In this document: positions 19,433 to 56,483 of the stretch, piece after piece
How the letters are laid out: every line of letters starts with the position of its first letter
Position numbering within the stretch: the stretch's first letter is position 1
From: Tilletiopsis washingtonensis
Taxonomy: Eukaryota > Basidiomycota > Exobasidiomycetes > Entylomatales
NCBI RefSeq assembly: GCF_003144115.1
Contig: NW_020312010.1
Coordinates: 318,428 to 382,427, forward strand
Length of the DNA stretch: 64,000 nucleotides
Direction of reading: 5' to 3'
Notes under the pieces: model-generated
Told to the model about the DNA's origin: nothing
The model's input: only the letters and a program-made list of their open reading frames with translations
Database searches by the model: none
Made by a program: the position numbers and the translations under genes

Positions 19433-21544
19433 ATGAGCACCACTCCTCCAAACGCAGAGGGCCCGCAGGGCGTCGTCATCCTCGAGCTCGGCGGCGTGCG
19501 CGCCGTGCAGGTGCGTGTGGTCGCGTGCGGATGGACGCCGCAGGCAGCGCGGCCGAGCACATGCTAGCGCCTCGACTGTCGCTGACCATCGCTGCGTCTG
19601 ATAGATGTATGAGGGCGAGCAGGATGAGCTGGCCAGCGGTGAGTCGTTGTGTGCTGCCCCGCGCCACGGCACTGCTCGCTGCGCAGCACGCTGATGCGAA
19701 GCGCGCAACAGGTCAGCTGCAGGTGCTCATCGTGCAAGTCAACACGGCCGACCCGGCGAAGTCGCCGCGCATGAGCGCCAAGCGCGCCGAGCCTGATCCG
19801 ACGTGAGTGCTTGTGGCGTGCGAGCCGCCTTCCGGCGCTGACCGACCTGCTCTGCGCAGCACCGACGTCTGGCTCGTCCTCTCCATCGGCTCGGCCTTTG
19901 CTCTTCCCGTCAAATCGTCCCAAGTAGTGCAGCCCGAGCGCTCTTCATCTTCCTACGTCTTCCCTTCATCGGACGTGCCCGGCGCCTCCATCAAGCTCTT
20001 CGTGCCCGTCTCCGACCCCAACGTCTCCGCATTCGAGAACACGCTGGCGCAATACTGCGCCTTCCAGTCGGACGATCGCAGCGATGCGGGTCAGATTGAG
20101 CTCATCGATGAGTCTGGCGCTGTGCTCGGCACACTCGACGGCGGCTACACCTTCCGCGAGGACCCGACGCTGCGGCGAAAGGGGCACGAGAAGGACCCAG
20201 TGCTCGTCGATCTGGAGGAGCTGGAGCCGAGCGAGATCGAGAGCGCAGCTGTGCAGCAGGGCAAGCAGTACAAGGAGGTGGGAGTGCGCCCGGTGCCGGG
20301 TGCGGACAGTGACGACTGGCTGCTCAAGGGCGCTTCGTTCATCTCGAGAGGCCTCATTCAAGGCTCGACGTTCTTGGGCGCCAAGATGAACAGCGCGGCA
20401 GATGCTTACAGTGAGTTGTTGAGCCAAGATGCAGCGCATGGGCGGATGGCAGGGCGGTAGCAGAGGTGGTCGTGCGCTGTGACGAGTGTGGTGGCTGCGC
20501 ATCGCAATGGTCGCTGACGCTCCCGTCTTGCGCCAGTCGAGAAGTCACGCTCCGCAAGTCCCGTCGGCGGCTACATCGACGATGGCAAGCGAGGTTCGGA
20601 CGCTGCGTCCATCGCGTCGACAGCGACGACTGGCAGTGGCAAGCGGCCGCTGACTTTCAGCAAGAAGTGCGTGCTAGGCGTGTCGCGCTTCGTCTGCGTC
20701 CGTTGCTGACCTGACTCGCCGAACAGCACGCATGCCGCAGCTGGACAAGCGCACAAGTGGACCGGCAAGGCCGTGAAGCTGTCGCACAGCACCAGTGCGT
20801 GATCTCTCTGCACCGCCGCTGTCTTTGCACTGACGCATCACCACCTCAGCAACGGCTGTCCTCTCCGCCGCCTCAGGTATGGGCGCCACGATCGGACAGC
20901 GCACTGGCATTCAGGCCAAGCCGCGCGCCGACGGCACGCCCGGTCCGCCGCCCAAGGGCCTGCGCGGCGTGATCAACCGCGGCCTCATCGCTGCCAACAT
21001 CGTCCTCGAGGGCGCAGAGCAGAGCGCCGAACGTCTGGTGAGCGAGCACAGGGCGGTGTGTGAGAGGGACAAGCAGCTGATGTATGCCTTGCCCAGCTGA
21101 CGGACGGAGGCAACTCGGCTGGCAAGGCCATCGAGCACCGCTTCGGCACGGAGGCCAAGGTCGTCTCGGGCCAGGTGGGCAGCATCGGCAAGGGCATCTT
21201 CATGGTCTACAAGGACGTCTCCGGTGAGTCAGCCTTCTCTGCCTTCTCTCCCTCGCCAGGAGCTCATCATGTCCATGCGCACAGGCGTCCGTCGCAAGTG
21301 CCTTCTGCACGTCGCAAAAGGCACCATGGTGCGCGCTCGCACCGACGATGGCCGCGAGGTCATTCTGCAACTCGACGCCGATGGCAAGCCGAGCACCAGT
21401 GGACAAGCATCGCCTTCCAGCGCCGGCTTCGCTTCGTCGTCATCGAGCGGCGGCAACCCGTACGCTGCTGGGGCGCAACCGCCGCAGCAACGACAGTACA
21501 ACGAGAAGAGCGCGAGTGCATTCGGACAGGGACCGGTGCGGTAG
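19433..21544 (+). CDS. Senescence/spartin-domain protein
   Basis: Nine exons: 19433-19510, 19605-19638, 19712-19802, 19860-20410, 20537-20666, 20727-20794, 20850-21037, 21097-21223, 21285-21544; all phases agree and give 508 aa. The C-terminal half carries the senescence domain found in plant senescence-associated proteins and animal spartin: GVINRGLIAANIVLEGAEQS, then AGKAIEHRFGTEA and IGKGIFMVYKDVSGVRRK. The N-terminal half (residues about 20-240) is acidic and without a recognised fold; no MIT domain is visible. Spartin-type proteins sit on lipid droplets, endosomes or mitochondria and act in lipid transfer or turnover; this role is inferred only from the family. Exon 2 is only 34 nt. Its stop codon lies about 70 bp before the first hairpin of the downstream array. 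Confidence 0.8.
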
Positions 21545-21612
21545 TCCGCCTATCCCCTTCTCTCCCGCCAGTCGTCACTCCTGCTCGATCGGTGGCGGTG
21601 CCGGTGTCGAAT

Positions 21613-21689
21613 GGCGCTCTGCAGCGCAAGTGCTCGCCGTCGTTCGCTCATTGCGAGCTACTGCAAGCACTTGAGTGACGGAGAGCGCC
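21613..21689. ncRNA. Candidate structured RNA, hairpin unit 1
   Basis: Three nested helices read from the sequence: outer GGCGCTCT (21613-21620) with AGAGCGCC (21682-21689), middle CAAGTGCT (21627-21634) with AGCACTTG (21666-21673), and apical GTTCGC with GCGAGC (one G-U) around a TCATT loop. Strand is undecided because inverted repeats fold on either strand, though the G-U pair is kept only as plus-strand RNA. Confidence 0.4.
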
Positions 21690-21818
21690 TGTTCGACATC
21701 GGCTCTCTCGCCTCTTCGAGCAGGACTCTACGACTGCACACACTTCTCTTCCCTCCCCTCCCCTCCCTTCTCCCTCCTCTCCGTCATCGGTCCGCCGACG
21801 AAGGCCACGTCGTCCGAA

Positions 21819-21915
21819 GCCGAAAGAGTGAAGATGGAGAACCAACGGCCTGCAGCTCTTCGCCGCTCTGCGAAGCCAGCTGTCGACACTTGGTTCTTCT
21901 TCTACTCCTCTCGGC
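21819..21915. ncRNA. Candidate structured RNA, hairpin unit 2
   Basis: Outer GCCGA/TCGGC (21819-21823 with 21911-21915), GGAGAACCAA with TTGGTTCTTC (21836-21845 with 21890-21899, one G-U), then CAGCT/AGCTG directly abutting the apical CTTCGC/GCGAAG (21858-21875) around a six-base loop. The most diverged member; it lacks the AAGTG word. The 3' flank contains a GTCGAC repeat (about 21914-21930). Confidence 0.35.
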
Positions 21916-22054
21916 GTCGACGTCGACGTCGTAGCGCTTCTTCGACAGGACCCGCGCGCGATATGGATCCCCCCCCCCCCCCTTCCTTCCTCCTCTTCCT
22001 CTGCCCCTCTTCATCGTACGGTCCGTCGACGAGTCTATCAAGCGCACGTCCAGC

Positions 22055-22136
22055 GATGACTGTCGGGACCGAAGTGCTCGCAGCCCTTCGCTGCCACTGC
22101 GAAGCGCGCGTGGACTTTGTCTTCTGCACAGTCGTC
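22055..22136. ncRNA. Candidate structured RNA, hairpin unit 3
   Basis: Outer GATGACTGT with ACAGTCGTC (22055-22063 with 22128-22136, one G-U), a short AAGT/ACTT helix (22072-22075 with 22114-22117), and apical CTTCGC/GCGAAG (22086-22104) around TGCCACT. Confidence 0.4.
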
Positions 22137-22245
22137 CCTCGGCGTGTACTTCCTCGACTCTCGGCGCGGCTTGCGCGCTGGACACACACCTCCTCCTCTC
22201 CCTCTTCACCCCTGCGTGCGATGCGCCGACGATAGGTTGAGCAGC

Positions 22246-22348
22246 AGGCGACGTGAGTTGAGGCTCGGGCGAAGTGTCCCGCTGCACTGCGCTCTCACTG
22301 CGCAGCATCTACGAACACTTCGCTGCAGCTTCTGCTGCCACGTCGTCT
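22246..22348. ncRNA. Candidate structured RNA, hairpin unit 4
   Basis: Outer AGGCGACGTG with CACGTCGTCT (22246-22255 with 22339-22348, one G-U), middle CGAAGTGT with ACACTTCG (22270-22277 with 22315-22322), apical CTGCGC with GCGCAG (22287-22305) around TCTCACT. The apical stem has exchanged a T-A pair for a G-C pair relative to units 2, 3 and 5. Confidence 0.42.
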
Positions 22349-22443
22349 GCTTCTGGACGCCTCTCGGTCGCCGCACGCCTGTACTACACCCCCTTCTCCA
22401 CTCTGCTCGCCACCGTACAGTCCCTCGATGGTGCAACCTCAGC

Positions 22444-22545
22444 GGCGACAAGCGCCCTGGTGCCACGATCAAGTGTCTCGCATCCCTTCGCTCCCACTGC
22501 GAAGGCAGCACACACTTGACCGTGCGGACAGGCGCTCTTGTTGCC
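22444..22545. ncRNA. Candidate structured RNA, hairpin unit 5
   Basis: Outer GGCGACAAG with CTTGTTGCC (22444-22452 with 22537-22545, one G-U) plus CGCC/GGCG, a 13-bp middle helix from CACGATCAAGTGT (22464-22476) and ACACTTGACCGTG (22512-22524) with one A-C mismatch, and apical CCTTCGC/GCGAAGG (22485-22505) around TCCCACT. The longest and best paired member. Confidence 0.42.
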
Positions 22546-22610
22546 GAAGTCTTGCACCGTCGAGAGACTGCACGCTGTACATACACTCGACCCTATTCCT
22601 CGCATCACCG

Positions 22611-25600
22611 ATAATCTTCAGCCTCCTTGGAATCCTTGCTGCGTTCTGGTGGGCGCCAGCTCGCGGCTGCATGCTACGCTCCGCTTGCGTCGTCCTCGCT
22701 GCTCCGTCTCCGGACGCATGTGGGGCCTTCAGCCGACCGTTGGACCTCGAGCTGCTGCAGGCACGGCACCAAGCCTTGCTTCTCTACGCCCTGCTTGCGG
22801 CCTTGCCGCTAGAGTCACAAACAAGACTCAGACCCCGACCACACCCAGGGCCGCTTGTTGTGCTTGCTGCGGCAACGACTGAGAGGCAGCACCCGGAGTC
22901 AAAGGCTGAGAGCGAAGAGCGCTGCAGCTGCGAGGCACGCGCCTGCGTCTCGCCTCGGGCAGCGCGCATCCGTCGGGAGTCCCACGCCTGCGACGCCCGA
23001 GCCTTCGCAGACCGCGCCTTGCGGCCGCAACGCTGGGCTTGGCCCTCGCTGCGGCTGCGGCTGCACGAGCGCGGAATGCGAGGAGCCTCGCTTGCGGCGC
23101 GGCGGGCTGCGGCTGCGATGCTGCGATGCGCTGTCCATGTGCCAGGCGCAGCATCGGCATCAGCGATGTGGGTGGCAAGCTGCAGCTCGACCGTTGGTAT
23201 CGGCTGCGCCCTGCCAGGATGCAGGCGACCGCGTGCTGCTGCGGCAAGCGGCGGCGGCCCATCGGGCGAAGCTCGCCGGCCGCCGCATGCCGCCCGCGCA
23301 GCGCAGCCCATGCTCGCTGCCGGCGTCTCGTTACGGCCGACCCCACAGCCCGTGCCGCAGCATGCCGCGAGGAGTGCCAAGGAGCGCAAGGAAGCGTCGC
23401 GAGCGCCGGCGAGCGCAAGGAGCGGCGCGCGCGCGTGCAGAACGAGCTCGGTCAGGTGCCCTTCTCCGCTCTCGCACGGCCCTCCTTCCTCCTCTCTCTC
23501 CGCCCGGCTGTGCGCGTCCCGGATGTGCTCTCCGCTTCTTCTCCTGCAGCTGCGTGAGCTGCAAATGCAAGCTGCGTCGGCCCCGCTTCCATCAGCAAGG
23601 GGCCACAGTCGGACCGCAGCTCCGAGAACGCAGCGCCGAATACGCTCGGGCTCGCGCGCGTTCTGTGCCCCTTGAGCCGGCAGCGGCGCACGTTGGCAGC
23701 GCCCTCGTCCCCCCTTCCATGCAGCTGCATTCCCGCTGCACGCTGCCTATTCACCCTGGGGTCCTCGCCTCGGCCAAGCCGGCGCTGCGGCTGACCCGAG
23801 GGTCTCTGCTTAATCAGCTGCAAGGAGCAACGCTCGAGCTCAGACGAGCGTGGCACGGAGCTGAATTGCTTTCAAAAGGGCCCCACGATCAATGCAGTCT
23901 CGCGGCTGGCCGTAGTCGCGATTGAAGCGCTCACTAATGTGATTCTCCGTCGGGTTGTATCAAGCACGCCAAGCTGATTCAACTCCAGCTTCTACTGCGG
24001 CCTGAGAAGGTGTGGCAAAACCTGCTCGGCCGCAGCACCACGGCGCCGCTGCGAGCCCCTTCTTTGCCCGCGCGCCTTTCGCTGCCAGGGGCTCCCGGTT
24101 CCACGCGCGTGCGCGGCCATTCCTGCATTCAGATTCTGCGCAGCTTTGTAGTCGTGCTGAGGGCAACTTCTATGCCTCGTGCAGCTCGGGACGCAGCAGC
24201 AGAATGCACAAATGCGGCCGAGGTGCGTCCCGCCGAGCGAGCGAGGGTCCCACGCCCAGCGTCGCCGCACGCCGTGGGATTTGCCACGCTCCCATGGCCT
24301 TGTCAAGGGGTCGTCGTAGCCCCAACCAACTCTGAGCGCTCGTGGCTCTCATCTCGCCTCCTCGTGCTGGCACGGGGCTTCATGCGTGTGCGACTGGCGC
24401 ATGACAGCTGTGCATCTCTGCTCGGTACAGCAGCGCGGCTGCTGCCTCGCTGGCAGAGCGACACCACGCGACGCGTCGTGGCGACAGGCCGGCAGCCGAG
24501 ATGCCTCTTCTGCGCGCCGGGGTGCCGCCACTGGCAATGCGCAGATGCGTCGATGCGTGTGGGAGACCGGCGAGGCATGGAGGAGGTCGCGCCTGGAGGA
24601 CGCTGCCGACGCTCCCGCTGCCGCTGTCTCCTGCCGGCGCCGTATTTCGGGCAGCCCGAGAGGCGTGGAGAACGCAGCGCGGCAGAGGCGGGAGGCACGG
24701 CAGCGGTGCGTCGGTGAGCGGGATGCGTTTTGCCCGCGCTGCCGCACGCCGCACGCCGGCGCCGACGTCGGCCTTCGCACGCCGCAGCTGCGCCTCGAGA
24801 GCGCCACCTGTCTTGCGCCTTGCGCCGAGCGTCGGCGGGCGGCAGCTTGCACCTCCGACTGCGAGCTGGGAATGGGAAATGCTGTCCGATGAGCCCGCCT
24901 GCCGGGAGAGGAGGCGGTCAGGTGGACATTGCCGAGCACCGAGCGCCGGGCTCGGAAAATGCAAAGTCGCCCCGCCTCAGCTCCAGCCTCAGCCTCAGCT
25001 CCGCCGGCGCTCCCACCGTCAGTGGCCTCCGCCTCCGCCTCCGACGCACGCCGCTCCCGACTGGGCTCGGCAGCGCAGGCGGGCAGCGCGGCCTGCGAGC
25101 CTTGTCGTCGCCATCGTCGGCAGACGCTGCCAGCGGAGGAGCAGAGGAGCTCCGACGTTGGCAGACAGCTCATGGGACGTGCGACAGCTGCCGTTCTGAT
25201 GTGCCGTCCTGGGGCTTTGTGCGCCTGGGCCTCGATACTCGACGCCATCGAGACGCCGATGGACAGAGCGAGAACAGAAGCGTGCCGAGCAATCGCCCTC
25301 GAGAGCTGCTCATCGCATCGCCGAGCTGGCGTCAGCTGGAATGTTGCGCCAGCATCGAGCATCGGGGCGACGAGCCATCGAAGATAGCCGCTTGCTGATT
25401 GCTGGCATGTCCAGCTGCTTGCTGTGGGAAACAACGCCGGGTGTGCGAGGCACGGAGAGCACGAGCCGGCGCAGGTCCGAGCGGCTAGCACCTGTCAAGC
25501 ATGCTGCTGCGGCGACGACTGCATGCTGTGAGTGGGTGCACGAGGGCACGAGGCAGACGCAGCGCCGCACCGCGAGGCTCGTGCCTTCTTGCTCGTGCTC

Positions 25601-28600
25601 TCGTCCACGTCTCGTTCCCTCGCTAGCCCAACGGTCCAGCGGTGCACGGGGGTGTGCGAGTGTGGGTGCGCGTGGAGCGCTACGCTGCCTAGCGCGCCGA
25701 CACTGAGATCGAGAGGGCATGCCGCGGATTCGAGCTGCTTGGCGTGCTCCAGAAGCACAGCATCAGGGTCAGGCAAGCAACTCGAATCAGAATCGAAGAG
25801 CGATGAGATGGAAGTGGTGGTGCGAGCCGCCCTGGGTGCTGGCGTGGGATCGTTCGACATCGGGCTCCGGGCGCATGCGGCGTGCTGCGGCAAGGCGCGC
25901 GGCCGTCTCACCTTGACCCGCTCGCCGTGCCGATGCGACCTCTGCACGAACGTTTGCTGTTGCTGCGTACCGCATGCTCCAGGGTCAGCCATGACGCGCG
26001 ACTGCACACTGCCTCGTCTCTGAATCAGGGCCTCACGCCGGTGCGGGCCGGCGGTACGAGTCAGCGTGCCGCACGCAGCGGACGCGGAGCAGCGGATGTT
26101 GCACGGCCTTGCTTGGCTCTGTCTCTCATCCGCAAGGCTTGTATTTGCTTCTGTCTCGCCTGCGCCTGACTCGAGCAAGCACGTCTTCGCGCCGCAAGCG
26201 GCTGCGGAATAGCATGTCTCTGCTGCGCCCGCCTGTCTCTCTGGTGTCATGAGAGCTCGGTACTGGGCGCCGCCGCAATCCGCATGCAATGGGCTGTAAA
26301 TGGATACCGCGAGCGCCCCGCAAGGGTACCTGGACGCCGCCGCTCGACGCCAACGCCAGCCGTCGCACCCCGACGTTGCCGCTGCGGCGCATCGAGCGTC
26401 CGGCGTCCGGCGCCCGGACCATCTCGGTATGGCATGGGCGATGCTGTTGATTGCAACCCCGCATTCGCTGCGCCGCCTGCGCCCAGCCCTCAGAGAGAGG
26501 GGAACGGAAGGAGCTCGGAGAAAGCGGCACCCAAGAGAGGTGTTGGAGCGTGCGGGGCACGCAAGCGAGCCGACGAGCCGTAGGCCGAGGCCGCCCTCGC
26601 TCGCGCCTTTCAGCATGCTCGCGGCGTATGCCTCGTGGGAAGCGTCGGATGGGCGGACAGGACAGCGGCGTGTGCTGACACGGAGAAAGCGGCATCGGCG
26701 CCTCGGCGCTCGGCGTCGGCGCTCGGGCAAAGCTGCGCTCTGCGGCGCTGGAGGCTGCACGTCGTCGCCTTGGTGGCGGCCGCAGCTCGGCTGCTGGCGC
26801 TGGCAGCAGCGTCGGAGTCAGACCATCCGCAGGAGGTCGCAGCATCAAAATCGCCACAGGCGCCATCGAAGTCTCCGCAGCGCCGAGATTTCTCCATGTC
26901 GCCTCGATCTCAGCGTCAGAAGGCATCGAAGGCCGCTGATAGCAGAGCTCGAGATCCGACCTGCGCTGGTCAGAGCATGCGGTCGAGGCCAGCAAGCACG
27001 CACGCGGCGCCGTGATGCTGGCGTGCGTCCGCGGAAGCACGCCGGCCGTTGATCTTAGCACGTCTCTGCGCATGCTCTCGCTGCAGCTGCATGCTGCATC
27101 AGCTGCTGATCCCGTCGCTGTGCTCTGCCTGCGCTGCTGCTCTGCTGGGTACTGGAAGATGCAGTCTGCAAGGCTGCGTGCTAAGCAGGTGTGCCGCGCG
27201 CTATGACTCGGCGACGAGCGAGGCGCAGCTGCTTCCGAGGCGATCAGCGCCTCACAGCAGTGCAAAGGCCCTTCTGCCGCGCTCCTCGCCGGATGCAAGC
27301 TCAGAAGGCTGCCTCCATCCGCCGGCTGCAGCAAGCGAGGAGCACCGGCTCCGGACCTCGCAGCGTTGGGCCGTGGACGGTCCCTCTGGCGCCTATGGTG
27401 CCACAGTGCAGCAGGGTCAGCAGAAGCACACCTGGCCCACGGGCACGCGCACGCCTCCTGGACGGTCCGGTACCCGGAGCGAAGCGTGTCTCTGGCGCAA
27501 TGCACACTTGCGAAGCTTCGGCCGCCCTGCTCACGCTGATGCTCCTTCGGCCAGGATCTGCTTCGGCCAGGAGACGAGGAGAAAGGGCGTCCGGCCGTGC
27601 GCTCGTGCTCGGGAAGAAGCGACGCATGAGAGAAACGCGCACGCATCGCGCGAAATGCCCGGGCGCCGCCTGCGCCTCCGGAGCGCGCGTGAGCCGGCTC
27701 GGCCTCCTTGTCCGCAGCGCCTCCTTCTTCCTGGCCCCCCCTCTTGCGCTGCTCCGTGCGTGCCAGGTGACGCAGTGCCACATGAGAGCAGCCCGAGAGA
27801 GATTCGGCGCTCCGAGCACGGGGCAAAACGCCGCACTCTGCACAGAATTTGGTGTCCCTCCCTCTCTGGCGATCGCTGCTGCGGCTTGCACGGAGGCGCC
27901 GAGCACGAGACGCCGCAGATCGACGATGGCGCTGCGATGCGTTCGCGCGCGCGCCGCTGCATGCCTTGCCTTGCGCGAGCGGACGGCGCCGCCGACGGGC
28001 GTAGCGTGCGCCTTTGCACCGCGTCCGCCACGCGAGCCGGCCGCTGCAGGCAGCCGCAGCGGCGGGCAAGCAGCCAGGAGCGGCAGGCGCCGTGCCCGAG
28101 CGTGCCCCATGACAAGTCATAGTGCCAGATGCAGCCGGAGCTGCAACGCAGCGTGATGGGCCTGCGCTGTGCTGCACCTCTGCAGGGCGTGTGCAGCGCG
28201 ACCTGCCGTTTGCGAACAACGAATGCGCCGAGCTGGACCGTCGCAGCGCGCAGGCAGCAGGCAGCGTCAGGGACGGCCTCCGTTTGCGTTCGAGGAGGCG
28301 CTCGATGGGGCCATGCTGCGATGCGGATGACGCTGCGCCGGCCGCTCCGACGGTGTTGGTCTCGCCTGGCCAGGGGGTGCGCTGCGCTCGAGAACGGAGC
28401 TCCTGCGACTCGAGCTGCCACTGAGCTGTGGCAAGGCGAGCGAGCGGGAGCAGTTCGGCTCGCAGCGCTGTGCTCTCTCGAGCGAGCTGCCGCTGCCGCT
28501 GCGCTCCGCCCGCGCCGTCGGGCGCCGGCACGCGGCACGCCTTGCGTCGCGCACTCGCCCTCTCGCAGCCGCAGAACACCGCATGCTCTGCGCTGTGCCT

Positions 28601-29731
28601 TGCCCGAAGCGCTGGGCGCTGCGGCTTGCTGTGCTCGATCTGTGATGCATGCAGCGCGTGCAGCGCCGGCGAGAGCGAGCGGTGCGAGGTGCGAAGGTGC
28701 GCGTTGCGGCGCGTCTGTGTGTTGCGCTCGCTGTGCTGGTGCGAGCTGCACCTCGCTGCACGCGGGCGGAGTCGACTGTCGCCGTGCCTGTCTCGCCGTG
28801 CGCCGCCGGGCCGCGTGCAGCAGCCCAGGAGAGGGCGGCGGAGCGAGCGGCGCGCATGCCTGCAAGTGCGCGGGAATGATGCGCAGTGCCGCATGGCAGC
28901 AGCTCGCCGCACCGCCCGCCGCCGCAGCCGTGCGCCCCCTGAGCGCGCGCGTGCGAAGGCGGTGGCGCGGCGGCGGCGAGACACGGGCGCTGCGCCCGGC
29001 GTGCTTCTGATTGAGAGCGCTGCACGCCGCACAGCAAGCCGCAGACCCTGGCGGCAAGGCGCGATGTGCCGGGCGCTGCGCCAGTGTCCGCGCCACACTG
29101 GCGCTGTGCCCGGCGCGCCTCGCCTCCCCGCGCCGTTGCGTCCGCTGCCCCTCGCAAGGCCGTGCCATGGCCGCATCGCTGCCTCCTGGGCCGCTCGAGC
29201 ACGAACAAAAGGTAGGCAGCGCCGGCCAGCGGCGAGCCACTCCGCCTCCTCCTCCTTCTCCTCCTCGCTCTGCACTGCGTCTCGCTCCATCCTACTGCGT
29301 CCTGGCCCAAGCACACCTTCGCGCGCACGCTCCTGCTCGCCGCGCCTCTCTCTCTCGCTCGCTGAGCCGCACCCTCCTGCACCTGCACTCCCAGCCATCT
29401 ACACCCTGGTGAGCACTTGGCCGAAGCGCGGCACACTCGGCGGGCGGCCCGAGCAGCAGCAGCGGGCACTCTCGCACGCACCGCCGGCCACTATATGTGG
29501 CCGAGGGCCACTCTGCGGCAGAGACGCCGAGGTGATGAGTGCCGCCCGCCGCGCGGCCCGAGCGCGGCCCAAGCTCGCATCTCTCCTGCCAGCTCGGCCA
29601 GCACCCGCTGCCCGCTCCCAGCCACTTCGCACCATGCTGACTCGCAGCCACAGGAGCATCGCTTTCACTCTTACGCCCAGCTGCGTCTCCGTTCCCGGCA
29701 CGCGCCTGCGCCGTAGCCCTCGCGCCTCGCC
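22611..29731. other. 7.1-kb gene-poor stretch upstream of the kinase gene
   Basis: No supportable gene on either strand. From about 26.1 to 29.4 kb long open frames overlap in most of the six frames, the longest being 1,090 codons on minus (29398-26126). Codons sampled at the end of that frame have only about 60 percent G or C at the third position, against roughly 90 percent in genes such as eIF3c, and the translation is rich in Cys, Arg and His without domains, so I do not call it. A slightly AT-richer island lies at about 23870-24000. The final few hundred bases (CT-rich) are probably promoter and leader of the gene at 29732. No tRNA or repeat family was recognised. Confidence 0.55.
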
Positions 29732-53667: not shown

Positions 53668-56483
53668 ATGGCCAACATCGCCATCGCGCCCGACGTCGAG
53701 CCGCGCCGCGAGGAGTTCACGCTCACCGCGCCCGACGGCTGCACCTTCCCGGCGCTGCGCTACCGGCCCGCGGCGCACATTCCCGTGCGCGCTGCGCTCG
53801 TCCTGCTGCACGGCTTCATCGAGCACCACCTGCGCTACGACCACGTGCTGCGCTTCTTTGCCAGCCAGGGCATCGACGCGCTCGCCTTCTCGCAGCGCGG
53901 CTTTGGCGCGCGCAGCAAGGGCGAGTACGGCGACACGAGCTGGAAGGAGCAGTACGAGGATGTGGAGGAGGTGCTGGTTGAGATGAGGAAGACGCTGGAC
54001 GCGCAGTACGAGGGCAGACTGCCGATGTACCTCTATGGCCACTCGATGGTGAGTACAAGGGCAGTACTAGGAAGGGATGGGAGAGGCAGAGGCGAGACGA
54101 GCTGCTGAGCGGGGAGCAGTGTTGCGGATGCGCAGAGCCGGCGACGCGAAGAGCTGGTGTAGCAGAGTAGGAGACGGTGGTCGGAAGAGAGCAGCAGCGA
54201 GCTCTCCAGATGCTCAGTGCAGGGCCGTCCGAGTCTCGCGTTTCGAAGTGGATTGATGCGCAGCGGGTGGTCGGACGAGCAAGACCTCGTGGCGCCGAGG
54301 GCGGATCGGCGAGTAGACGACCGCGCGCGTAGGCTTGAGCTCTATACGCCGCGCTTCTTGCCTATGTCGCTGCCTCCATTCATATCGCCTCTCGCCTTTG
54401 CGTGAGCTCAGGTCGTACACTATTGCTGCGCATCACGCACTTGCTCTCGCATGTCACACGACACTCGGCTGCGCATGCTGACTCTTCTTTCAGGGCGGCG
54501 GTCTGGCGTTCGGCTTCTTCACGCGTCCCTCCTCTTCTGCTGTGCCATCCGCCTCGACGAAAGCGCTCATCTCCGGCGTGATCTGCTCTTCGCCCTGGCT
54601 CCGCCTCGCGCATCCTCCTCCGGGCGTCGCCTTCTGGCTCGCGCCTCGGCTGCTCAAGCTCTTCCCAAAGATGCCGTGGTATGCGCCCGTCAACCCGGCG
54701 GAGCTGTCGCACGATCAAGCAGTCATCGATGACAACAAGTCCGACCCGCTCATCTCGCCGCGTGTCTATCTCCGAGCCGTTGTTGGTCCTCTCCTCGGCG
54801 GCCTCAAGCTGCTGAGTGACGAGTACAAGAACTGGCCTGCAGACCTGCCGATTCTGTTCACGCATGGCGAGGACGATCCGGTGACGGACTGCAAGGCGTC
54901 GCGAGAGATGGAGAGCAAGATTGAGGCGCGGGATAAGGAGTGCAAGACGTGGAAGGGCGCGTACCATGAGGTGCACAATGAGGAGGGCGAGATGAAGGTG
55001 GGTCGCATTGCGTGAAGAACGGAGGCACGGGCTGACATGCGCTGTCTAGGTCGAGTTCTTGCAGTACACCGTCGAGTGCGTGCAGATGGGCCGTCTGCGG
55101 CAGGCCTGCAGCTGACCTCATTTGCGCCTCGCAGCTGGATCCTCAAGCGCGCTCCCGGCGAAGGCATCTTTGCCAAGGGCGAGGCTTCGTCGAGCAAGGA
55201 TGCCTCGCAGCTGCAGGCGCCGCCGTCGCAGGGCGGCGACGACACCAATGCCTCGAACACGACCGACTCTGCCTTCTCCACGCTGCCCACAACCATGGCT
55301 TCCTCCTCTGCGCTGCCCAGGGGCGCCTGGGCCACGCTCATGACGGGCGAGAAGTACCTGCCCGGCCTCGCGGTCTTTGCGCACTCGCTGCTGCGGGAAC
55401 ACAAGAGCGCGTACCCGCTCGTGGTCATGACGACGGGCAAGCTCAGCGAGGAGGCAAGGCAGTGCGTGCTTGCGCTGGGCTGCGAGATTCGGGAGGTGAA
55501 GGATCTGCGTCCGGAGGTCGCTGGCACCGTGAGTTTCTCGGCCCTCACCTCGCAGCATCGCGGCTCATCCCTCCCAGAACATGGCGTACGCGCGCTTCGG
55601 CGACGTCTGGACCAAGCTGCGCGCCTTTGAGCTGGCCGAGTACGAGCGCGTCATCATGGTCGACTCGGACATGCTCGTGCGCCGCAACATGGACGAGCTC
55701 ATGACGCTGCCGCTCGACGACGGCATGCAGATTGCCGCGGGCTTTGCGTGCACGTGCAACCCAGCGAAGATGGCTAGCTACCCGAAGGACTGGTGAGTGG
55801 CGCGAGCGAGCGAGTCGACTGGCTAGCCGTTCCCTCCCGTAGGCGCTGACTTTGCGCTTCACCCTCGTTCCCGCTCAGGATCCCGGAGAACTGCGCCTTC
55901 ACCCCGCAATCGCACCCGGCGGCCCTCACGCAGCCGCTCAAGCTCGACGCCTCGTCGATGCCGACGCACAAGCTGCTCAACTCTGGCCTCGTCGTCCTCA
56001 CGCCCTCGAGCGAGACGATGCGTGCCATGGAGCAGCGCCTCAACAGCGACCCGAGCGTCAAGGAGATGGCCTTCCCGGACCAGGTACGTGCGGCGCTGCC
56101 ACGGAGAGAGTATCGGCTGATCACGGCCGCACCAGGACTTCCTCGCGGCCTTCTACGCCGGCGCATGGCAGCCGCTGCCGTGGGTGTACAATGCGCTCAA
56201 GAAGCTGCGCGCCGCGCACGCCGACATGTGGCGCGACGACAAGGTCGCCAACGTGCAGTGAGTCTGCCCGCTCCAGGCCATCTCTTGCAGAGCTGACACG
56301 CTGCGCAGCTACATCATCGACAAGCCGTGGGAGTCGCTGCCCTCCGATGAGCACCCCGACGCAGTCACGCACGGCTGGTGGTGGGCCGCCTGGCGGCACC
56401 TCGACGCCACGCACGGCAACATCGATGCGCCGCTGTGGCAGCTCGTCAACAAGTACGTCGTGCAGGAGCAGCAGGCTCAGTGA
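53668..56483 (+). CDS. Monoacylglycerol lipase-GT8 glycosyltransferase fusion
   Basis: Exons: 53668-54048, 54494-54997, 55050-55075, 55135-55528, 55578-55792, 55879-56083, 56136-56257, 56309-56483; one frame of 673 aa with consistent phases. Residues 1 to about 310 are a Yju3-like monoacylglycerol lipase: HGFIEHHLRYDH, nucleophile GHSMGG (Ser126, split by intron 1), acid in HGEDDPVTD and His in GAYHEVHNE. Residues about 360-673 are a GT8 domain: WATLMTGEKYLPGLAVFAHS, metal-binding DSD at 464-466 (VDSDMLVRRNMDEL), LNSGLVVL and FPDQDFLAAF, as in glycogenin/galactinol synthase-like enzymes using UDP-sugars. A ~45-residue Ser/Ala/Asp/Gln linker joins them with no stop. An ATG at 55295 in ACAACCATGG could start the GT8 part alone. 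Intron 1 is 445 nt; exon 3 only 26 nt. Confidence 0.82.

Follow-up and report, generated by a model that had tools for sequence, protein, structure and literature searches.

The closest described counterparts of tandem hairpin loci are hairpin RNA (hpRNA) clusters of Drosophila. As related in the parts of that study drawn on here, these clusters give rise to several tandem hairpins from a common transcript, at least one hpRNA transcript is spliced, and the clusters turn over rapidly; the hp-CG4068 cluster comprises 20 tandem copies in D. melanogaster and 9 in D. simulans (PMC10317233). In fungi, well-supported hairpins of microRNA-like RNAs (milRNAs) tend to be short, and milRNAs are often associated with protein-coding genes, according to the consulted sections of a second source (PMC9757828). 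The titles and abstract openings returned by searches of open-licence PMC papers mention no arrays of tandem hairpins in fungi or in relatives of the smuts. Such an array is described here from the basidiomycete Tilletiopsis washingtonensis, whose genome comprises 18.7 Mb in 32 contigs. It consists of five imperfect hairpins at 21569-22577 of a 64-kb stretch, hereafter the window, that corresponds to positions 318428-382427 of contig C13. The array is tentatively read, with confidence somewhat short of even, as a transcribed multi-hairpin RNA that feeds RNA interference (RNAi) and is laid out like the Drosophila tandem hpRNAs.

Both folding and a strand-neutral alignment of the arms, by which the arms were delimited, recover five tandem hairpins at about the location given in the original prediction. 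Each contains 49-62 Watson-Crick pairs in 70-85 alignment rungs, and the loops are spaced 199-229 nt apart in the arm alignment. Numbered along the plus strand, the units are 1 (21569-21736, with arms at 21569-21646 and 21654-21736; 61 Watson-Crick pairs), 2 (21789-21952; 59 pairs), 3 (22024-22166; 49 pairs), 4 (22214-22378; 55 pairs), and 5 (22411-22577; 62 pairs). Laxer scoring widens units 2 and 3 to 21780-21961 and 22012-22180, respectively. The loops of units 3-5 (TGCCACT, TCTCACT, and TCCCACT) fit the predicted consensus TNYCACT, and the predicted pyrimidine tracts are evident in the sequence of the spacers (21737-21788; 21962-22011, which includes a C tract; 22181-22213; and 22379-22410), all of which are pyrimidine-rich.

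The hairpins fold more strongly than shuffled sequence, with fold z scores of -1.5 to -10.3 over units and strands when each strand is compared separately with its dinucleotide shuffles. Units 1 (-9.4 on both strands) and 5 (-8.5 plus, -10.3 minus) are extreme on either strand, and units 2 (-3.2 plus, -5.6 minus), 3 (-4.3 plus, -1.5 minus), and 4 (-5.4 plus, -4.2 minus) are moderate. Among 3192 sub-windows of 160 nt covering the 64 kb, ordered by G+C-corrected fold energy, units 1, 5, 4, and 2 are the four best non-overlapping sites and unit 3 is the 17th.

The apical 50 nt are clearly homologous between units, to the extent that units 3 and 5 are identical at 26 of 28 nt, which suggests that the units arose by tandem duplication. 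By alignment, this conserved core occupies 21628-21672, 21844-21891, 22072-22117, 22272-22320, and 22471-22517 in units 1-5. A covariance model of the core recovers all five on the plus strand at 48-61 bits, by construction, given that it was built from these five sequences. Outside the core, each outer stem pairs with its own partner (z 3.6-9.0), and the own 5'-3' arm assignment ranks first among 120 permutations for whole arms and for the portions more than 30 nt and more than 45 nt from the apex. Outer arms compared between units are mostly near background, with a few values up to z about 4. Ladder scores are 32-60 inside the array and overlap with the scores of the remaining pairs that were tested (mean 29, sd 17, maximum 68). 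The claim that outer stems differ between units and pair within them thus holds as far as own-partner pairing is concerned; because there is so little outer-stem homology between units, the further claim of compensatory change is not established there.

Own-partner matching with little between-unit homology is also what local copying of DNA predicts. The array could consist of DNA-level palindromes that began as short cores, were tandemly duplicated, and then had their arms lengthened or corrected through template switching or fold-back synthesis, each arm being copied from its partner, with no RNA function necessary. In the consulted portions of the work of Monttinen and Loytynoja, template switching is put forward as a source of hairpins and a means of keeping them paired, and the RNA hairpins made in this way have arms complementary along the stem, as observed here (PMC8794818). 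Unlike those hairpins, the window array has no excess of long perfect runs. The longest runs in the arm alignments span 6-10 Watson-Crick pairs, and in one-sided tests for shorter runs against simulated decayed hairpins the Fisher P value is 0.13 when the five window units are taken and 0.22 when 12 of the 13 hairpins in the three arrays considered below are taken, one having been dropped for too few simulations. Because these runs are no longer than in simulated decay, the array bears no mark of recent arm-to-arm copying, although slow or short copying would still be compatible with them. Evenness of the mismatches was considered as a separate signal and rejected: in all 13 hairpins the longest run is shorter than its mean under permutation, but the effect is not significant against the decay simulation passed through the same aligner. 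DNA-level palindromes are a serious rival, though on balance a less likely account, and one that also has to contend with the introns of a sister array described below.

The same simulations bear on the proposal that the hairpins are neutral remains of one inverted duplication, tandemly amplified and now decaying. The mismatch pattern fits simulated random decay of perfect hairpins, and pairing in 75% of core cells is similar to the 78% column identity between units, as decay after duplication predicts. Such an origin is nevertheless very improbable, given that decay from one ancestral hairpin is not expected to make the arms of a unit more similar to each other than the units are, as the strong outer pairing and mostly near-background homology between units indicate, and given that three such clusters are found in 334 kb.

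These clusters emerged from a palindrome scan of 333,749 bases, 269,749 of them outside the window, in which an affine scanner was used and scores were judged against 20 shuffled sets; an earlier version with cheap gaps separated real from shuffled DNA poorly. The sample included 20 large stretches (200 kb) picked at a fixed position of contigs 1-20. Three clusters stand out: the window array (score 98), a second array in stretch L027 on contig C17 (89), and a third in L035 on contig C8 (64). The next real cluster scores 29, and the best of the shuffled sets reaches 38. A fold-energy scan of nearly the same DNA gives the same clusters, with single strong folds elsewhere ranking among them. Strong isolated folds were seen at L045 1981-2140 and L037 1541-1700 (z -4.2 and -3.7). 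The second array lies in one of the fixed-position stretches, and L035 entered the sample through a pattern match to the apical stem-loop, its hairpins not being at the matched place. Of seven centres tried in each, five non-overlapping hairpins were retained in L027 and three in L035 for the G.T and A.C counts given below, the rest being weak or overlapping.

It is the architecture, rather than the sequence, that recurs. The original prediction of a new structured RNA family, in the Rfam sense of shared sequence and structure, is not borne out, as DNA and pattern searches of the genome found no sequence relative elsewhere. A whole-array DNA search of the genome with the window array matches only itself, and searches with each array for the many similar copies expected of a miniature inverted-repeat transposable element or other dispersed repeat match only that array, although the search skips very common words and so does not prove that the arrays are rare. 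Between the three arrays, BLAST detects no shared sequence at E 0.01, a search that also missed the relatedness of two L035 hairpins. The apical stem-loop pattern occurs at 44 places versus 34 for a reversed control and is no marker of further arrays. Searches against Rfam 15 (no match above gathering score) and for tRNAs (no match) were negative across the whole window, as was a search of a phage collection with the array DNA.

The second array provides an indication of an RNA product. It spans L027 8444-10000 and L051 1544-3501 (contig C17, about 108.4-110.4 kb) on the plus strand. Within 2.3 kb, five strict introns (GTRAG ... CTRAC ... YAG) occur on the plus strand and none on the minus strand; the overall rate of such introns is 0.218 per kb per strand in the window and the 20 stretches, L027 included, versus 0.062 in shuffled sequence. 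Fold z scores are -2.7, -2.4, -6.7, and -9.2 for the four inner exons, which measure 253, 252, 711, and 449 nt, respectively, and the 253- and 711-nt exons contain stops in all three frames. All five main hairpins fall inside exons. Folds of the 711- and 449-nt exons display, by eye, three and at least two large hairpins; the scanner did not count the last two as a cluster. Sequence relatedness among the L027 hairpins is slight, with one of ten pairs above all its shuffles (z 5.2). A VPS11-like gene lies downstream. The locus is apparently a spliced non-coding RNA made of hairpins, with a decayed coding gene as a possible alternative, and the introns go part of the way toward demonstrating its transcription. 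A purely DNA-level origin leaves unexplained why the main hairpins sit inside the exons of a multi-intron strand.

The other two arrays adjoin coding sequence, which brings in a further explanation: that the hairpins form a structured 3' untranslated region (UTR) or a structured long non-coding RNA that is not diced and acts in RNA stability, transcription termination, or protein binding. Upstream of the window array is a spartin-like gene with a senescence domain (19860-21544, plus strand), in which four or more coding exons can be read from the open reading frames (ORFs). The position of its start is uncertain, and a stretch resembling an intron finishes at 19859. The spliced C-terminal part matches Pfam Senescence (PF06911) at E 7.5e-17, and the first ORF matches the same family at E 0.0018, under the curated cut-off. 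Unit 1 begins only 25 nt past the stop codon of this gene (TAG, 21542-21544). The third array (L035 2342-3019; contig C8, about 71.2-71.9 kb), which runs to the end of the DNA sampled, likewise follows a stop codon as read (2081-2083), with its first strong hairpin about 260 nt later; the gene preceding it has a weak signal-peptidase match (E 0.0016, under the curated cut-off). The first two L035 hairpins, which are neighbours, are clearly related in a pairwise test (z 14.6), so that tandem duplication of hairpins recurs as well. This undiced alternative also accommodates the resemblance of the second array to a spliced non-coding RNA. It is nonetheless judged unlikely: five or more large hairpins seem, as a matter of judgement, to be beyond the need of a UTR element, and no coding gene was identified immediately upstream of L027 by eye, no protein-library search having been made there.

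An RNAi substrate would be at home in this genome, which encodes a Piwi-domain Argonaute and an RNA-dependent RNA polymerase (RdRP), each recognized by domain matches only, together with a Dicer-like gene in which two RNase III hits lie about 250 bp apart, with a Dicer_dimer domain upstream of them on the same strand. The window array shows two of the features by which hpRNA or endogenous small interfering RNA (siRNA) precursors are recognized, namely long hairpins gathered in one locus far above chance and a genome with Dicer and Argonaute, the latter again by domain matches only. Long imperfect hairpins are plausible Dicer substrates in such a cell. In the proposed scheme, the array would be transcribed on the plus strand, either within an extended 3' end of the senescence-domain gene or in a non-coding transcript of its own, and five imperfect hairpins of roughly 145-170 nt would fold independently in that RNA. 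The long mismatched stems would most likely be cut by the Dicer-like enzyme to yield small RNAs for Argonaute, and the array would be one member of a set of multi-hairpin loci in a genome of Ustilaginomycotina type. Among the roles originally suggested, that of small-RNA precursor is tentatively favoured on account of these genes and of the multi-intron strand of the sister array. An RNA function is weighed above a DNA-level one mainly because of the introns and the clustering.

A number of results weigh against a diced RNA product, beginning with the covariation on which the original prediction had relied. The individual examples cited for it are accurate; for instance, an apical pair is T-A in units 2, 3, and 5 and G-C in unit 4, and the apical stem of unit 1 has a T-G wobble (in the core alignment, UA in three, GC in one, and a gap for unit 1). 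As a whole, they are not significant. In the 50-nt MAFFT alignment of the five cores, which is off register in places, 2 of 18 pairs are altered on both sides, and 214 of 500 shuffles have at least as many; 93 of 500 shuffles attain the covariation score, a test with low power given five sequences and the partly misregistered alignment. The outer stems of different units scarcely align, which leaves homologous columns missing where sequence differs most. Selection on pairing as the best explanation is accordingly unproven, since arm-to-arm copying of DNA could also match the arms, and covariation should not serve as proof. What survives of the first interpretation, which is partly supported overall, is that the hairpins are real, the units related in tandem, and the outer pairing specific to each unit.

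Strand asymmetry is similarly weak. Selection for RNA pairing on one strand should cause G.T to outnumber A.C mismatches, as it does in each array: on the plus strand, presumed to be the transcribed one, the ratios are 23:15, 36:22, and 22:9 in the three arrays (29 G.T to 22 A.C in the window array under other scoring). The total over 13 hairpins is 81 G.T to 46 A.C, of which composition alone predicts about 71 G.T among 127, and no array taken singly shows a significant excess over composition (P 0.15-0.21). Across the window array, the better-folding strand varies from unit to unit, units 2 and 5 folding better on the minus strand. Near-compositional mismatches and the lack of a better-folding strand are both consistent with palindromes maintained at the DNA level. 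Further adverse points concern the sister arrays and the products: neither the window array nor the L035 array contains a strict intron; two weak centres of the second array (scores 9 and 11) span introns; its other two inner exons each have one stop-free frame; and the longest open stretch of its spliced RNA is 258 codons versus a shuffled mean of 204, features that would fit a remnant of a coding gene. A search for trans targets with two core patterns, allowing up to three mismatches, returned one off-array match (with three mismatches) and none, respectively, and the core patterns reveal nothing convincing as small-RNA guides.

Among sequences in and near the array, a protein-coding reading was examined and set aside: five array ORFs gave no Pfam match reaching the curated cut-off (one chance-like match, E 0.058), a search that did not extend to homologous proteins. 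Downstream, about 7 kb of GC-rich sequence (22650-29700) separates the array from a PAS-kinase-like gene, and none of seven long ORFs tested in it matches Pfam above cut-off. The best named match of the PAS-kinase-like protein is from Ceraceosorus bombacis (51% identity over 85%); other Ustilaginomycotina come next, which marks the source as a relative of the smut fungi. A strong palindrome pair in very GC-rich sequence at 28936-29089 (scores 25 and 44) is the fourth-best cluster of the scan. Farther along the window, a long one-loop hairpin and another palindrome lie about 700 nt apart (53203 and 53821-53980), the hairpin having a fold-ranking z of -2.5.

The observation of the array is real, and its recurring architecture makes it more interesting than a lone oddity. 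A broader proposal, possible but somewhat doubtful at present, is that the arrays belong to a dispersed class of multi-hairpin non-coding RNA genes in which fold and spacing are kept while sequence is almost wholly turned over, some members being spliced with hairpin-bearing exons, and which loads RNAi, possibly as one side of an arms race against selfish elements. Two extra arrays in the bases scanned outside the window scale to about 139 per genome (Poisson 95% range 17-501), or, with L035 excluded, the count is one array in the 200 kb of fixed-position stretches. Were the class real, roughly 140 arrays, within a range of about 17-500, would be expected in 18.7 Mb. If they are transcribed and diced, they would constitute a class of non-coding genes in which mainly the fold persists and which escapes sequence-similarity searches. 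The arrays are also a natural setting in which to test whether selection or template switching produces compensatory change in long stems, and they could help to show what RNAi is retained for in this lineage.

Like fungal milRNAs, the window array consists of imperfect hairpins at a gene border in a fungus with RNAi genes; the shortness of milRNA hairpins in the same source, set against 70-85 alignment rungs and five hairpins in a row, is a difference and a further point against the diced-RNA reading. For the Drosophila hpRNA clusters, production of siRNAs and dependence on Dicer-2 are shown in the parts of the study consulted, whereas for the fungal arrays, which come from a different kingdom, both are proposed. 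Unlike the fly clusters, the units in the window are strongly diverged outside the core, and most L027 hairpins share no detectable sequence with one another. The Drosophila clusters are nevertheless the nearest known layout, with tandem hairpins in a genome that encodes Dicer and Argonaute, as here, and if the arrays are transcribed and diced they would represent a fungal counterpart of the fly tandem hpRNA loci.
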